A DNA stretch of 32,146 nt from Alphaproteobacteria bacterium (GTDB lineage: Bacteria > Pseudomonadota > Alphaproteobacteria > Micropepsales > Micropepsaceae). The position numbers and the translations under genes were made by a program. Every line of letters starts with the position of its first letter. Positions within the stretch are counted from its first letter, which is position 1. The notes under the pieces are model-generated. The model was given only the letters and a program-made list of their open reading frames with translations. It ran no database searches and was not told where the DNA came from. The DNA lies in the NCBI GenBank assembly GCA_947462105.1, contig CANHNJ010000021.1, positions 1-32,146 of the forward strand, given 5' to 3'. Of this stretch, positions 1 to 5,217 are shown piece after piece.

Positions 1-390
1 CATGCCACCGCTGGCCATGCCACCGCTTTTCATCGCCGTGGTGCCCATCGCGCCGGCCTTCATGCCGTCGCCCTTCATCGCGGTGGTGCCCATCGCACCG
101 GCCGCCTTCACGGCAGGCTTCATGCCGCCCGCCGCCATAGTGTTGGTATGGGCCATCATGCCGCCACCGGCAGCCATGCCCGCGCCCTTGGTCATGGCCT
201 TGGCGTCAGCCTTGGTATCCATTGCGTCCTTCTTGGCGGGGGTGGCCATGCCACCAGCGGCCATGCCGCCCGAAGCAGGGGCCGCCATGCCACTGGCAGG
301 CTTGGCCATCGGCGCAGCCGGCTGGGCGGCGACCGGCAGGATAAAGGCAAGCGTCGCGGCGAGTGCGGCCGGACCTAACAGATTTTTCAT
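1..390 (-). CDS. Met-rich repeat exported protein (MXKDX-like), C-terminus cut by window edge
   Basis: The reading frame starts at an ATG at 390 behind a GGAG ribosome-binding site and runs off the left edge, so only the first 130 residues are visible. It opens with a signal peptide (MKNLLGPAALAATLAFILPV, then AAAQ). The rest is low-complexity Met/Gly/Ala/Lys sequence with Met every 3-6 residues, including GGMAAGGM and two copies of GAMGTTAMK. There is no Cys in the visible part. It resembles the pentapeptide MXKDX-repeat proteins, small periplasmic proteins of unknown function. A Cu(I)-binding or methionine-oxidation-buffer role is my inference from the Met content. It is divergent from the ECF sigma gene and has its own TGTAAC-N17-CGTA promoter motif, so it is a likely target of that sigma factor. 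The opposite strand is also open here, but its frame has no plausible product. Confidence 0.8.
   Translation of the reverse strand, partial: MKNLLGPAALAATLAFILPVAAQPAAPMAKPASGMAAPASGGMAAGGMATPAKKDAMDTKADAKAMTKGAGMAAGGGMMAHTNTMAAGGMKPAVKAAGAMGTTAMKGDGMKAGAMGTTAMKSGGMASGGM
16..105. repeat. Two tandem ~45-bp units inside the Met-rich gene
   Basis: Positions 16-60 and 61-105 are near-identical units, each beginning CATGCC and containing TCATCGC(C/G)GTGGTGCCCATCGC. On the coding strand each encodes a GAMGTTAMK-type segment. Such arrays change length easily by slippage, so the copy number past the left edge cannot be predicted. Confidence 0.75.
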
Positions 391-421: not shown

Positions 422-448
422 TACGGACGGAAGGGCGTTTGGGTTACA
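422..448 (-). promoter_or_regulatory. ECF-type promoter for the Met-rich protein gene
   Basis: On the minus strand TGTAAC (448-443) is followed by a 17-nt spacer and CGTA (425-422). The -35 element and spacing are identical to the motifs before the sigma gene and the redoxin gene, with one -10 base changed. It would leave a leader of about 25 nt before the ATG at 390. I infer recognition by the adjacent ECF sigma factor. Confidence 0.7.
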
Positions 449-474
449 GGCACAATACGATAAGTTTTCACGGC

Positions 475-501
475 TGTAACTTTTCGCGCTTTCGCGGCGA
501 A
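475..501 (+). promoter_or_regulatory. ECF-type autoregulatory promoter of the sigma/NrsF operon
   Basis: TGTAAC (475-480), a 17-nt spacer, then CGAA (498-501), just upstream of the ECF sigma gene. ECF promoters typically have a conserved AAC-containing -35 and a CG-rich -10. From memory, the Caulobacter SigF motif GTAACC-N16-CGAA fits this pattern. The predicted start near 507-509 leaves only a 10-15 nt leader before the GTG at 520. Confidence 0.72.
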
Positions 502-519
502 ATATCGAAAGAGCCGGGT

Positions 520-1062
520 GTGATAGTCCAAGAAGCACAATATCGGGCCTGGATGGTTGCCGCCCTTGCGGGGGATGGCGCGTCCTACCGCATGCTGCTG
601 ACGGCGCTCACCCGGCATTTGCGAGGGTATTTTTCGCGGCGTCTCGATCCCGCCGCAGCGGAGGACGCAGTGCAGGAATGTCTGATCGCGATCCATACGC
701 ATCGCGCGACCTATGACAGCGCCATGCCCTTTACGGCCTGGATGTACGGCATCGCGCGCTACAAGCTGCTGGACGAATTTCGTCGCGTCAAACGGCGGGC
801 ACAAGTGCCGCTGGACGAGGCGCCCGACCTGTTCGCGCAGGATGAAAGCGAAGCGGCCACGGCGCGGCGCGACGTCAACCTGTTGCTGGCGCGGCTGCCG
901 GAAGCAAAGCGGAACCTGGTGCGGCAGATGAAGCTGGATGGCGACAGCATCGCCGAAGTGGCGGCGCGCAGCGGCATGTCGGAAACCGCCGTCAAGGTCA
1001 GCGTTCATCGCGCCATCAAATCGCTGGGCGACGATGTAAGGGACAGCAATGAGAACCGATGA
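520..1062 (+). CDS. ECF RNA polymerase sigma factor (NrsF-associated, SigF-like)
   Basis: An alternative sigma factor that directs RNA polymerase to stress promoters. The GTG at 520 has a purine-rich site (GAAAGAG) just upstream and gives 180 aa, normal for the family. The longer open frame upstream runs through the promoter motif. Sigma-2 spans about residues 25-90 (RRLDPAAAEDAVQECLIAIH, then FTAWMYGIARYKLLDEFRR). Sigma-4 spans about 120-175, with the helix-turn-helix DGDSIAEVAARSGMSETAVK. There is no N-terminal or C-terminal extension. The 3' end overlaps the DUF1109 anti-sigma gene by 14 nt, implying translational coupling. The exact ECF subgroup cannot be fixed by eye. Confidence 0.93.
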   Translation: MIVQEAQYRAWMVAALAGDGASYRMLLTALTRHLRGYFSRRLDPAAAEDAVQECLIAIHTHRATYDSAMPFTAWMYGIARYKLLDEFRRVKRRAQVPLDEAPDLFAQDESEAATARRDVNLLLARLPEAKRNLVRQMKLDGDSIAEVAARSGMSETAVKVSVHRAIKSLGDDVRDSNENR

Positions 1063-1687
1063 CCTGATCGCCACACTGTCGGCCGAGCTGGCGCCAACCC
1101 CGCCGGGCGTATTCTGGCGCCGTGTCGCGATCGGCACGGCGGGCGGCACGCTGGCAGCGGCCCTGCTGTGGCTGGGGAGCATGGGGCCAAGGGCCGACCT
1201 CGCCGAGGCCGTTGTCGCGTGGCCGTTCTGGATGAAGTTCTTCTATACGCTGACGATTGCCGTTACCGGGCTGTGGCTGCTGTCCCGGGCTGGACGGCCC
1301 GGCGCCACGCTGATGCCGCCGGTCCTCACCCTGCTCGTGCCCATCGCGGCGATGATCGCCCTGGCGGGGCTGGCCCTGATGGAGCCGGATGCGGATACGC
1401 ACCGCCTCCTGATGGGCCATACGGGCCTGTGGTGCCCCTTTGCCATCGCGCTGGTGTCGCTGCCGATACTGGCGGGCTCGTTCTGGAGCCTGAAAAAGCT
1501 TGCGCCGACCCGTTTGACGCTAGCGGGCGGCGCGGCCGGTCTCTTTGCGGGATCATCCGGCGCCTTTGTCTATGCCTTCTATTGCACCGAGAGCGCCGCA
1601 CCGTTTGTCGCGATCTGGTACAGCCTGGGCACTGGCCTATCCAGCATTGTCGGGGCCTTGCTGGGAAAAACCGCGCTGCGGTGGTGA
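1049..1687 (+). CDS. NrsF-type anti-sigma factor, DUF1109 membrane protein
   Basis: A 212-residue polytopic inner-membrane protein with about six hydrophobic segments between residues 25 and 205 and a short cytoplasmic N-terminus (MRTDDLIATLSAELAP) that should hold the sigma factor. Length, topology and position directly after an ECF gene match the DUF1109/NrsF family. Two cysteines, C129 (GLWCPF) and C179 (AFYCTE), lie in or beside membrane segments 50 residues apart. From memory, Caulobacter NrsF has two functional cysteines at 131 and 181, linked to the response to metals such as dichromate and cadmium. The inferred role is to sequester the sigma factor until a thiol-reactive or metal signal reaches the envelope. 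Confidence 0.9.
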   Translation: MRTDDLIATLSAELAPTPPGVFWRRVAIGTAGGTLAAALLWLGSMGPRADLAEAVVAWPFWMKFFYTLTIAVTGLWLLSRAGRPGATLMPPVLTLLVPIAAMIALAGLALMEPDADTHRLLMGHTGLWCPFAIALVSLPILAGSFWSLKKLAPTRLTLAGGAAGLFAGSSGAFVYAFYCTESAAPFVAIWYSLGTGLSSIVGALLGKTALRW

Positions 1688-1704
1688 GACCCGGCCCTGA
1701 TCGC

Positions 1705-1720
1705 TTAACGTCGAACTAAC
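1705..1720 (+). promoter_or_regulatory. CtrA-box-like site (one mismatch)
   Basis: TTAA-N7-CTAAC, differing by one base from the alphaproteobacterial CtrA consensus TTAA-N7-TTAAC, 40 bp upstream of the small CxxC protein gene. A single mismatched copy is weak evidence. Confidence 0.3.
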
Positions 1721-1760
1721 CCGCAACCACTACATTCCAGGCTGCAATCGGGAACCCGCA

Positions 1761-2063
1761 ATGGCCATTGGCACCGATTATCCCACCCCCGTGAACGTGA
1801 ACGGCTATTCGTGCAAAAACTGCACGGATGTGGGCTATGCGAAGAAGCACATTGATCCGGCCCATCCGCGTTCGGGCCCCTATGGGATCAACGCCAAGGA
1901 TGATCCCTCGGTCAACAAACCTGCCGCCGTGGTGTTTGGCGGTTCGCTGGCCGGCTTGAATGCGCCCGGCAAAATGGCTGATGGCCGCCCCGCGTCTGAA
2001 GACGTGCCAGCCAGCGCCTTCGCCAAAAGCGCCACTGGCACACAATTGGACCTCCAGGCCTAG
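1761..2063 (+). CDS. Small conserved-looking protein with a CxxC motif, function unknown
   Basis: A 100-residue protein with no signal peptide or membrane segment. The start is the ATG at 1761 behind GGGAA. The N-terminal half looks constrained: VNGYSCKNCTDVGYAKKHID carries a CxxC pair (C18, C21) and is followed by DPAHPRSGPYGINAKDDPS. The second half (AVVFGGSLAGLN and an Ala/Ser-rich tail) looks less structured. I have a vague impression of similar unnamed proteins in other alphaproteobacteria but cannot name a family. The CxxC could bind metal or form a disulfide. No TGTAAC-type motif precedes it, so it is probably not in the flanking ECF regulon; a CtrA-like site does. Confidence 0.75.
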   Translation: MAIGTDYPTPVNVNGYSCKNCTDVGYAKKHIDPAHPRSGPYGINAKDDPSVNKPAAVVFGGSLAGLNAPGKMADGRPASEDVPASAFAKSATGTQLDLQA

Positions 2064-2079
2064 AAATTGATTTCAAGCC

Positions 2080-2106
2080 TGTAACGTTTCTGGCAGCCCC
2101 AGCGAA
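2080..2106 (+). promoter_or_regulatory. ECF-type promoter of the redoxin gene
   Basis: TGTAAC (2080-2085), 17-nt spacer, CGAA (2103-2106), an exact match to the motif before the sigma operon. The ATG at 2137 lies 30 nt beyond the -10 element. This links the redoxin to the ECF/NrsF regulon although a gene intervenes. Confidence 0.72.
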
Positions 2107-2136: not shown

Positions 2137-2709
2137 ATGCGAAAGCTCATCACGGCGGCAATTCTCGTGCTTGGGCTGGTTGCCCCGGCCTTGGCAAACC
2201 CCGACTTCGATCTTGGTCCGGCGGTCGGCGCCAAGGCCCCGTCCATCGGCAGCCCCCTGGACGCAACCGGCAAGCCGCGCGCCATGCCTTCCCTGGTGGG
2301 CGAAAAAGGCACTGTTCTTTTCTTTTTCCGGTCCGCCGCATGGTGCCCCTTCTGCCAGCTCCAGTTGATGGAACTGAATGGCGGCGTCGCGGAAATGGCC
2401 AAGCGTGGCTACAATCTTGTGGGCGTCTCCTATGACAGCCCGGCGGTGCAGGCCCGCTTCATCGCAAACCAGGGCATCAAGTTCACCCTGCTGAGCGATC
2501 CGAAATCCGAGATCATTGACCGTTTCAAGCTGCGCGATCCGCAATACGCGCCGGGCAGCCGGGCCTTTGGTGTGCCAAGACCCGCGATCTTCATCCTGGA
2601 CCGCGAAGGGGTCGTGAAGGCAAAGCTGTATGAAGACGCCTATACCAAGCGGCCGCCGTTGAAACTTGTGCTGGAGACGCTGGCCAGCGTCGCCGCGAAA
2701 GCCAACTAG
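2137..2709 (+). CDS. Exported AhpC/TSA-family redoxin with a WCPFC motif
   Basis: A thioredoxin-fold protein of 190 aa, probably acting in the periplasm on peroxides or protein thiols. A signal peptide covers about residues 1-20 (MRKLITAAILVLGLVAPALA). The redoxin core follows: VGAKAPSIGSPLDATGK, then VLFFFRSAAWCPFCQLQL with C70 and C73, then VGVSYDS and FGVPRPAIFILDREG, which carries the cis-Pro region. The CxxC form of the active site resembles thiol-disulfide redoxins more than a classical one-Cys peroxiredoxin, so the substrate is open. The start is the first ATG after AGGGGC. Its ECF-type promoter suggests it answers the same stress as the sigma/NrsF operon. Confidence 0.88.
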   Translation: MRKLITAAILVLGLVAPALANPDFDLGPAVGAKAPSIGSPLDATGKPRAMPSLVGEKGTVLFFFRSAAWCPFCQLQLMELNGGVAEMAKRGYNLVGVSYDSPAVQARFIANQGIKFTLLSDPKSEIIDRFKLRDPQYAPGSRAFGVPRPAIFILDREGVVKAKLYEDAYTKRPPLKLVLETLASVAAKAN

Positions 2710-2784: not shown

Positions 2785-3291
2785 ATGCAAAGAGCCAGCG
2801 CCATCTTCCTGCAGGCGGTCGTCATCCTGATCGGCATCGGGGCGCTGGCCTTCCTGATCTGGGAGCCGCAGGCGGAAGGCGTCAACGCCCACGCCACCGG
2901 CTTCGCCGAGATCTATCTCGATGATCCCTTCCTGGCCTATGGCTATGTCGCGTCGCTGTCGTTCTTCGCGGCGCTGTACCAGGCCTTCAAGGTTCTGGGA
3001 TATGCCGGGCACGGCACCATCTTCTCGGCGGCGGCGATGAAAGCCCTGCGCACCCTGAAGCGTTGTGCGCTCGCCATGATCGGCTTTGTCGCAGGCGGCG
3101 AAATCCTGATCCTGCTGCAACCCTCCGATGATCGCGCCGGCGGCGTCGTCATGGGCCTCCTGATCGCCTTCAGCGCGCTCACGATGGCGGCCATCGCGAC
3201 GATCCTGGAGCGGAATTTGCAAACGGCCCTGGATGCCGCCGCTGAAACTCAGGCCCGGCCGGGCACCCACATCTCTGCAAGCGCGACATAA
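2785..3291 (+). CDS. DUF2975 family inner-membrane protein
   Basis: A 168-residue membrane protein with four hydrophobic segments (about residues 6-28, 50-72, 90-112 and 122-145) and a short charged tail. FLAYGYVASLSFFAALYQAF, then FSAAAMKALRTLKRCALAMI and the final GGVVMGLLIAFSALTMAAIA, resemble DUF2975 in order and spacing. The family has no firm biochemical role. I chose the ATG at 2785 because the 13 codons before it lack the hydrophobic start usual for the family. Its 3' end overlaps the 3' end of convergent btaB by 43 bp. Confidence 0.8.
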   Translation: MQRASAIFLQAVVILIGIGALAFLIWEPQAEGVNAHATGFAEIYLDDPFLAYGYVASLSFFAALYQAFKVLGYAGHGTIFSAAAMKALRTLKRCALAMIGFVAGGEILILLQPSDDRAGGVVMGLLIAFSALTMAAIATILERNLQTALDAAAETQARPGTHISASAT

Positions 3292-3896
3292 CCGCGATAC
3301 AGGCTGCGAAAGCGAAACTCGCAGCCAAGGATTTGCGCCATCGCCGGCAGCCGGTCGCGCAATTCCAGGCGCGGCGTGACGGAGAAAATTCGCAGCCAGC
3401 CGAAAAGCAGGCGCCGGAACCAGCCCGGCAGGCCGGACTGATCGCCAAAATCGGCGACATGCAACGAGCCGCCCGGCGCCAGCAGCCCGGCAGCGCTGTG
3501 CAGCGCCAGTTCCCAGTCCGGAATCATCGAAAGCGTGTAGGACAGGATCACGCGATCAAACCGCGCCGTCCCGAAAAGCGCAGCCGGGTCAAAGTTGGTT
3601 GCATCCGCCTGCGCCACACGGATGCGGCCGGACTGGTTCTCCCGCGCGATGCTGGCCCGGGCCGTCGCCAGCATGACGCTGGAAAGATCGACGCCGAAAC
3701 AGCGGGCTTGCGGATAGCGTTGCGCGATACACAGCAGGTTGCGCGCGGTGCCACAGCCAATTTCCAGGACGCTGCCGCCACCGGCCAGATCAAGCTCGCG
3801 GATCAGGACGTCACGGCCCAGCAAATAGGGCTTGCGGGTGAGATCGTAAAAGTGGCGCTGGACGCGATAGATCTCGTCCATCCGGTTGCCGCTCAT
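3249..3896 (-). CDS. btaB: Betaine lipid synthase N-methyltransferase (BtaB)
   Basis: A SAM-dependent methyltransferase of 215 aa that adds three methyl groups to diacylglyceryl-homoserine, giving the phosphorus-free lipid DGTS at the membrane surface. The N-terminus DEIYRVQRHFYDLTRKPYLL is typical of BtaB. Motif I is VLEIGCGTARNL (about residues 42-53), followed by the acidic FGVDLSS, AQADATNF and LLAPGGSLHVADFGD. The ATG overlaps the btaA stop in an ATGA, so the two are translationally coupled. The pairing with btaA makes this specific function more likely than a generic methyltransferase. Confidence 0.9.
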   Translation of the reverse strand: MSGNRMDEIYRVQRHFYDLTRKPYLLGRDVLIRELDLAGGGSVLEIGCGTARNLLCIAQRYPQARCFGVDLSSVMLATARASIARENQSGRIRVAQADATNFDPAALFGTARFDRVILSYTLSMIPDWELALHSAAGLLAPGGSLHVADFGDQSGLPGWFRRLLFGWLRIFSVTPRLELRDRLPAMAQILGCEFRFRSLYRGYVALAEMWVPGRA

Positions 3897-5146
3897 GCCG
3901 GCATGGCCGTTTCATTGCGCGTATAAAGATGAAACGCGCCATAGATGGAGGAGCGATCCCTGGCATTCAGCTCTACGCTGCGCGCCGCGTGATAGGTCCA
4001 GCCGGAAAGGATGTCTTCCGGCACCTTGCCCGGCAGCAGGCGTTCGTCCGCCGCCGTGCGGAAGATGACCCGCGCGCCGGGCGCGGCGCAGCGGCTGATC
4101 TGCTGCCACAGCGCCGTCAACTGCTCCGGGGTCATCCAGTCCTGCGCATCCAGCAGGACGAAGCCCTGCACCGTGCCATCTGCGCTGCGCGCCAGGAAAT
4201 CGGTCATCGATTCATGCCGCACATCGACCCGGCCGGCGCGGCTGCGGATGGCTTCGAAATTTTCGGCTTCCAGATACGGCGGCAAGGCGCCGTTTCCGGC
4301 GACGTCATAGCCGCGCCCAAAAGCCTGCCGCGCGAAGTAATTCTCTTTCATCGGAAAGCCGCAGGCCAGCTTGCGGGCGCGCTGGCGCAGCACTTCCGGC
4401 AATCCGCCGGGATGTCCCGCCGCCAGTGCCGCATACTGCGCCGGCGGAATACCCAGGCCATACAGCGAGGCCGGGTGCTTGAGCATCGCCCGCAGCAGCC
4501 AGTGATCGAACACCGGGGCAAGCCTGTTCTCGAAATAATCCTGCTGCTCCTGCAGCGAGCGGGCCCGGGTCAGGGCACTGAGATCGACGCCCAGCGCCTT
4601 GCCCAGCAAATGACTGAAGCCGATGAAGCGGCCCAAAAGGCCCGTGCGATAGAACCCGCGGGCAAAGTCGCAGATGCGGCGGCGGCCAAACAGGTCGCGC
4701 GCCTGCCAGTAGCGCCGCGTCGCCTCGTCGAGGTGCGGCGCGATATAGTCGTCGAATTGCTGGATGTTGGACGCCAAATTGGCATGCGCGAAGAAGTTGG
4801 CGTAGTGCCAGTGCGACGGCAGGCACCGTGCCGCTGCAAGCTTCAGCTTGTTGAGGGCAATATGGGCGTGGTTGAGATCCACCGCCGTGATGCGCCCGGG
4901 ATTGCCAGTGAGATAGCTCAGAATGTTGCAGCCGCCGGACGCGATGGCGACGATATGATCGCCGGGCTTGATCGCCAGGGCTTCCAGATCCACGGCGGGG
5001 TCTTCCCAGATCTGCGGATACACCAGCCCCTGGAACGCGGCGCTGAACAGACGTTCGCGCAACCACGATCCCGAGCGGTCACGCCGCACCGCCTCATCGA
5101 CCCGCGCCGCCGTGGCGCGCCTTGTACCGGCAGCAATTCCAGCCAT
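3893..5146 (-). CDS. btaA: SAM:diacylglycerol 3-amino-3-carboxypropyltransferase (BtaA, DUF3419)
   Basis: The first enzyme of betaine-lipid synthesis. It moves the 3-amino-3-carboxypropyl group of SAM to diacylglycerol. From the ATG at 5146 the product is 417 aa, close to known BtaA. Family marks include GLVYPQIWEDPAVDLEAL, the SAM-binding IASGGCNILSYL with AVDLNHAHIALNKLKL, and in the second half VLLDAQDWMTPEQLTALWQQ and ARVIFRTAADE. Codons upstream of 5146 stay open but are Cys/Arg-rich and unlike the family. The gene is followed by btaB with a 4-bp overlap and preceded by a Pho-box-like repeat, which fits replacement of phospholipid under phosphate limitation. Confidence 0.93.
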   Translation of the reverse strand: MAGIAAGTRRATAARVDEAVRRDRSGSWLRERLFSAAFQGLVYPQIWEDPAVDLEALAIKPGDHIVAIASGGCNILSYLTGNPGRITAVDLNHAHIALNKLKLAAARCLPSHWHYANFFAHANLASNIQQFDDYIAPHLDEATRRYWQARDLFGRRRICDFARGFYRTGLLGRFIGFSHLLGKALGVDLSALTRARSLQEQQDYFENRLAPVFDHWLLRAMLKHPASLYGLGIPPAQYAALAAGHPGGLPEVLRQRARKLACGFPMKENYFARQAFGRGYDVAGNGALPPYLEAENFEAIRSRAGRVDVRHESMTDFLARSADGTVQGFVLLDAQDWMTPEQLTALWQQISRCAAPGARVIFRTAADERLLPGKVPEDILSGWTYHAARSVELNARDRSSIYGAFHLYTRNETAMPA

Positions 5147-5199
5147 TTTGTGCCTCGCACAGCAGCGAACCATTTGTCTTGTGCTACTAGGCGCACAGC

Positions 5200-5217
5200 A
5201 TGACGGGGCCATGACGT
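5200..5217 (-). promoter_or_regulatory. Pho-box-like direct repeat upstream of btaAB
   Basis: On the minus strand ACGTCAT (5217-5211), a 4-nt spacer, then CCGTCAT (5206-5200). This has the 7-4-7 layout of a PhoB box (consensus CTGTCAT-N4-CTGTCAT), with 5/7 and 6/7 matches. A weak -10 (TAGTAG, 5189-5184) lies about 10 bp further on, the usual PhoB-dependent spacing. Confidence 0.62.

Follow-up and report, generated by a model that had tools for sequence, protein, structure and literature searches.

A switch formed by an ECF16-type sigma factor and its NrsF-family membrane anti-sigma factor probably (roughly 80%) controls a regulon for the repair of methionine oxidation in the cell envelope. 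This reading follows from one promoter type that precedes the genes for the sigma factor and the methionine sulfoxide reductases MsrA and MsrB, both in this genome and in its relatives. The regulon would most likely defend the envelope against bleach-like oxidants rather than against copper. The window, i.e., the whole stretch of 32,146 nucleotides that was analyzed, is contig C21 of a 2.17-Mb genome in 41 contigs.

The operon begins with a GTG-started gene (520..1062, plus strand) for an ECF sigma factor of 180 residues, which contains both region 2 (Sigma70_r2, 3e-11) and region 4 (Sigma70_r4_2, 9.1e-8) and scores 188.8 bits against NCBIfam PRK12539 (cut-off 171). The gene that directly follows (1049..1687, plus strand) overlaps it by 14 bp and encodes an NrsF (DUF1109) protein of 212 residues that matches PF06532 over its full length (7.1e-57). 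Its cysteines C129 and C179 are the two that have been studied in relatives. The NCBIfam NrsF equivalog (NF042994) gave 136.3 bits, which is under its curated cut-off of 300. Judged by domains and gene order, the two proteins are an ECF16-type pair. Within the family, NrsF was detected in 62 of 96 genomes.

Three promoter-like sites in the window consist of TGTAAC, a 17-bp spacer, and CGAA or CGTA. TGTAAC-N17-CGAA is found ahead of the sigma gene (475..501, plus strand) and ahead of a redoxin gene (2080..2106, plus strand), and TGTAAC-N17-CGTA (448 to 422, minus strand) diverges from the sigma operon toward a Met-rich gene. The distance from the end of the motif to the start codon is 18 nt for the sigma gene (GTG, 520), 31 nt for the Met-rich gene (ATG, 390), and 30 nt for the redoxin gene (ATG, 2137). 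All three sites proposed in the initial annotation are exact matches, and its statement that the window holds no other full copy of the motif was confirmed: 100 dinucleotide shuffles of the window gave a mean of 0.02 copies, and none of them reached three. Also borne out was its outline of an ECF sigma/NrsF pair with a promoter on its own operon, accompanied by two genes for exported proteins with the same promoter, the divergent Met-rich gene and the redoxin gene. This motif is the one published for ECF16 promoters, with the consensus (T/C)GTAAC-N17-CGAA (PMC8315932, partial text); the sigma-operon site also fits the form (T/C)GTAAC-N16/17-CGAA that we drew from the available parts of three sources (PMC8315932, PMC3420878, and PMC3511200).

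We then consider the whole genome, which was scanned for the TGTAAC form only. The exact N17 motif has four copies, one of them outside the window (C1:60318), and the backward-read control has five; with one mismatch allowed, the control outnumbers the motif by 102 to 37. Because the control is commoner than the motif, rarity alone is weak evidence. The spacing is more informative: TGTAAC-N(10-24)-CGWA matches 21 times, namely four times at N17, five times at N16, and 12 times over the other 13 spacings, and the excess at the two published spacings has a Poisson P of 1.3e-4 (for at least nine matches). Thus, the genome search recommended in the initial annotation did not separate the exact N17 motif from its control and did reveal a spacing-specific signal. 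A spacing of exactly 17 bp, as first described, holds for the three window sites; that of the regulon is 16 or 17, with N16 sites before MsrB and a further MsrA. The backward-read counts could be taken to mean that the shared motifs reflect chance or a general promoter instead of one regulon. This is very improbable in view of the spacing excess, the coherence of the downstream genes, the conservation of the motif at redoxin, MsrA, and MsrB genes with near-empty controls, and the joint change of the -35 boxes of sigma and redoxin genes (see below).

Two of the nine N16/N17 matches, both N16, look like chance, so that seven form one coherent set: the sigma factor, the Met-rich protein, the redoxin, an exported MsrA, an exported MsrB, another MsrA, and a small exported protein. 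The fourth N17 site (C1:60318) is 23 nt upstream of the exported MsrA gene (PF01625, 1.1e-54). About 1.6 kb beyond it, an N16 site is located 51 nt upstream of the MsrB gene (PF01641, 2.3e-47), whose product has a twin-arginine-like leader. Another N16 site is found 29 nt upstream of the other MsrA, the sole further MsrA of the genome, and one more precedes the small exported protein gene, which faces a second, ECF16-like sigma gene. The two matches judged by eye to be chance, which are counted in the nine, are C1:9901, followed after more than 200 bp by an ORF of TonB receptor type, and C7:76351, which falls within an opposite-strand ORF resembling adenylosuccinate lyase. None of the nine matches has a recognisable copper gene behind it. 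With regard to linked MsrPQ genes, the contig ends in the Met-rich gene, and the one PF00174 protein of the genome lies elsewhere (C14:51119). This protein was rejected as an MsrP partner, as it has no nearby motif match and no exported N-terminus was seen.

The second sigma gene (L038:954-1439, minus strand; C1:77731-78297 in the genome itself) is 66% identical to the first, ends inside region 4, and has its own CGTAAC-N16-CGAA promoter, which is outside the nine matches because only TGTAAC was scanned. It has no nrsF gene beside it, and a search of the genome detected no second NrsF. The two facing genes have two facing N16 promoters, and the small exported protein is poor in Met. This locus looks like a decaying paralogous module.

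To assess conservation, 40 NrsF loci were fetched from genomes of the family, and 31 sigma loci (30 of the 40 plus L094) with at least 45% identity were analyzed; eight loci below this threshold and two without a sigma gene were left out. NGTAAC-N16/17-CGWA is present before the sigma gene in 31/31 loci, with a divergent copy in 16 of them. Among the eight loci of lower identity, the motif is present in five and missing in three. For other genes, the pattern was compared with three controls (read backward, with spacings 10–14, and with spacings 19–23). The searches for MsrA and MsrB each gave a match in 66 of 69 genomes, and the 30 best loci of either were used: the pattern is found upstream of exported MsrA in 26 (controls 0, 1, and 0) and upstream of MsrB in 17 (controls 0, 2, and 2). 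In six genus members, MsrA is directly behind nrsF and has a motif of its own.

The MsrA promoter occurs in 20 of 21 genomes with NrsF and in six of nine without it (P = 0.069). The corresponding figures for the redoxin promoter, in either of the two forms described below, are 13 of 19 and three of 10 (Fisher P = 0.064), so that both links to NrsF presence are suggestive and not significant. An ECF16-type promoter is kept before exported MsrA in six genus members in which NrsF was not detected (G070, G075, G077, G080, G081, and G047, the last just 62% complete; loci L213, L212, L191, L192, L199, and L211). The nearest sigma matches of NrsF-less genus members are 25–35% identical, and no TGTAAC-type motif was seen at the nearest sigma loci of the NrsF-less genomes with an MsrA promoter.

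The Met-rich gene (1..390, minus strand) is incomplete, since the contig end at base 1 cuts its reading frame. The available part encodes at least 130 residues, including 19 Met, no Cys, and one His, behind an N-terminus that is signal-like by eye. The contig stops within this repetitive gene, whose repeats may have caused the break in the assembly. The MXKDX repeat profile (TIGR02953) gave 13.4 bits against a cut-off of 41 on this incomplete gene, and a profile search yielded no match to DUF2282 (bufferin precursor). An exported (by eye) Met-rich protein that is divergent from an ECF16 sigma gene and has its own promoter is the arrangement of MrpX/BcrX. A Met-rich stretch divergent from the sigma gene was observed in 15 of the 31 sigma loci versus two of 233 background windows, and 12 of these 15 loci also have the divergent motif; no stretch above the threshold was found in the other 16. 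In one genome (G035, L054:1667-2332, minus strand), the divergent promoter-bearing slot holds an exported DUF1223 protein (PF06764, 5.3e-57; CSSCPPA motif) instead of a Met-rich gene.

Met-rich sequences can bind Cu(I), and the abundance of Met in this protein (19 in 130 residues) would suit a copper or heavy-metal unit, in which it binds periplasmic Cu(I) and NrsF senses metals. Caulobacter SigF/NrsF controls a response to chromium and cadmium (PMC3511200, partial text), and clusters for bufferins, which are copper-chelating peptides, contain NrsF genes (PMC12452194, partial text). However, three of the nine genomic matches precede Msr genes and none precedes a recognisable copper gene, the match at the TonB receptor-like ORF being of the chance type, and the Met-rich protein has neither a DUF2282 match nor Cys, and only one His. 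As the convincing promoter copies outside the window point to methionine sulfoxide reductases, the emphasis of the initial annotation on Cu(I) and metals was not upheld, and we consider a metal-handling unit unlikely. Methionine repair is the reading followed below.

The redoxin gene (2137..2709, plus strand) encodes 190 residues with an N-terminus that is signal-like by eye, an AhpC-TSA domain (3.6e-26), and the motif WCPFC (C70 and C73). A predicted model based on 34 sequences (pLDDT 90.6) has a peroxiredoxin fold, matching structures of BCP, AhpE, and AhpC (best Foldseek E-value 6.3e-13); its best structural match is 4mh2 (Z 22.5, rmsd 1.7 over 153 residues). Sequence matches in PDB are best to BCP/PrxQ-type peroxiredoxins, followed by ResA. 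The active-site signature of peroxiredoxins is PxxxTxxC. In all 34 aligned redoxins (the window protein and 33 of 36 relatives; L140, L143, and L145 were left out), this signature is replaced by RSxxWCP(F/Y)C, with Cys at the place of Thr/Ser and Ser at the place of Pro. C73 falls on the Cys of PxxxSxxC when the protein is aligned to 2cx3. A classical peroxiredoxin identity was therefore rejected, as the fold agrees and the signature is missing. The CxxC pair (C70 and C73) is invariant in 34/34 sequences, as in ResA/TlpA-type thiol-disulfide oxidoreductases, and this dithiol suggests that the chemistry of the redoxin is disulfide exchange. It is a real possibility, if short of an even chance, that the protein is instead an envelope peroxidase acting in parallel to methionine repair and not an electron donor to MsrA/MsrB: the fold (Z 22) and the BCP/PrxQ-type sequence matches would agree with this, whereas the loss of PxxxTxxC in 34/34 redoxins argues against it.

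Close relatives of the redoxin are rare in the genus. They are 63–84% identical and occur in G069 (two copies), G036, G074, G072, and G070; G025 has fragments only, on two contigs. The motif is upstream of all six whole copies, and in G069, G036, G074, and G072 one copy and the sigma/nrsF genes are no more than about 1.3 kb apart. A Rhodospirillaceae MAG (L136/L238) has a 65%-identical redoxin behind a sigma-nrsF pair. A search of named genomes yielded 36 relatives that are at least 37% identical, by their titles mostly from Alphaproteobacteria including Sphingomonadales. NGTAAC-N16/17-CGWA is located within 260 bp upstream in 16 of 34 testable loci (controls 1, 1, and 0), a count that omits two of the 36 loci near contig ends and 27 weaker relatives (L163–L189). 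Six of the loci (L127, L129, L131, L132, L133, and L134) are in genomes that also belong to the genus-member set, so the two sets are not independent. NrsF was detected in 21 of the 31 searched genomes that have redoxin relatives.

The 18 redoxin loci without the NGTAAC motif include five with a TGCAAC form and 13 with neither form. In four genomes (Sandarakinorhabdus limnophila, Sandarakinorhabdus sp. AAP62, and two Sphingomonadales MAGs), both the redoxin promoter (L145, L152, L141, and L143) and the sigma promoter (L232, L233, L231, and L230) are TGCAAC-N17-CGAA. S. oryzae (L146) has the TGCAAC form at the redoxin gene, and NrsF was not found there. Over these loci together with L142, ten in all, there are 12 matches to TGCAAC-N16/17-CGWA and none to the same pattern read backward. 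This coordinated change of the -35 box is our strongest argument for assigning the redoxin to the sigma factor, although it may represent a single evolutionary event; of the five redoxin promoters with TGCAAC, three are identical to one another.

Between nrsF and the redoxin gene is an ORF for 100 residues (1761..2063, plus strand) with no family match in profile searches. It is missing at the G069 locus, where the redoxin directly follows nrsF, and is probably not part of the system. A DUF2975 protein (3.8e-18) is encoded directly behind the redoxin (2785-3291, plus strand), and a DUF2975 relative follows the redoxin in L140 too. Farther along (3252-5212, minus strand), a methyltransferase gene adjoins a gene for a DUF3419 protein (1.4e-105), an arrangement that we take to resemble betaine-lipid synthesis genes.

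A reasonable model is that a periplasmic oxidant, most likely hypochlorite-like reactive chlorine and possibly peroxide, would alter NrsF, probably via C179, and that the altered NrsF would free the sigma factor, as relatives of the pair suggest. The sigma factor would then transcribe its own operon, the Met-rich gene, the exported MsrA and MsrB genes, the second MsrA gene, and the redoxin gene from one promoter type. These promoters are present at the regulon genes; we infer their dependence on the sigma factor. The Met-rich protein might take up oxidant as an expendable sink, and its sulfoxides, like those of other envelope proteins, might be reduced by MsrA and MsrB. Both reductases require a thiol donor, for which the CxxC redoxin is a speculative candidate, perhaps recharged in turn by a DsbD-type protein; the genome encodes one DsbD_TM protein. 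The inducer is not fixed by the family, because the responses of Caulobacter SigF and of the Sinorhizobium ECF16 sigma factor differ (PMC3511200 and PMC6180224, partial texts); in the latter, H2O2, Cd, and chromate all failed to elicit a response (PMC6180224, partial text).

Where exported MsrA/MsrB take their electrons from matters in practice for bacteria in which MsrPQ does not fill this role. A shared promoter type links the redoxin to the methionine-repair sigma factor, and in one group the promoters of the two have changed together, which makes the redoxin a directly testable donor candidate. That the SxxWCP(F/Y)C redoxin supplies MsrA/MsrB with electrons as their dedicated periplasmic donor, in place of the MsrPQ branch found in known hypochlorite systems, in several Alphaproteobacteria is a tentative and rather doubtful proposal; if true, it would describe a self-contained, thiol-driven Met-rich sink cycle whose donor is built on a peroxiredoxin fold. 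The ECF16 theme of a Met-rich sink plus Msr extends to many species of one genus, and the set of neighbors is apparently exchangeable. No redoxin in an ECF16/NrsF regulon was found in print in the literature searched, where NRSF is also the name of a eukaryotic factor. Nor did we find there the variant seen here, in which MsrA/MsrB are combined with a recurrent redoxin.

The core of the finding is already known from published ECF16 systems with Met-rich proteins and Msr enzymes. The module had been called little described in the initial annotation, which is fair for the redoxin but not for the combination of ECF16/NrsF, Met-rich peptide, and Msr, which has been published for hypochlorite (PMC8315932 and PMC4623255, partial texts). 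The Brucella melitensis BcrS/AbcS system with bcrXQP similarly has an ECF16 sigma/NrsF operon and a divergent gene for a Met-rich MXKDX protein, TGTAAC...CGAA-type promoters on both, and methionine sulfoxide repair; HOCl induction is a feature of the Brucella system, whose repair enzyme, the MsrPQ-type BcrQP, is encoded together with the Met-rich peptide in a single operon, whereas here MsrA/MsrB are encoded elsewhere and a redoxin is added. Msr genes are common to ECF16 regulons (both points from PMC8315932, partial text). In Azospira suillum, SigF/NrsF, yedYZ, and mrpX form a hypochlorite system that shares the sigma/anti-sigma pair, the Met-rich peptide, and a methionine sulfoxide reductase with the present one; it has YedYZ in place of MsrA/MsrB, and the available part of its description names no redoxin (Melnyk 2015, as cited in PMC4623255). 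Caulobacter SigF/NrsF is also a sigma/NrsF pair, with the promoter GTAACC-N16-CGAA and YedY in its regulon, but this regulon consists mostly of two DUF2282/DUF692 operons, and its inducers are Cr and Cd and not agents producing ROS (PMC3511200, partial text). Bradyrhizobium EcfF/OsrA, an ECF16 system with the promoter GTAAC...CG(t/a), includes three MetSO reductases, and the part of the source used here names no Met-rich protein (PMC3420878). A co-regulated periplasmic thioredoxin and a DsbD-like protein have been proposed as its electron source; the thiol partner there is a predicted membrane-anchored thioredoxin, whereas here it would be an exported CxxC protein with a peroxiredoxin fold (PMC3420878, partial text).
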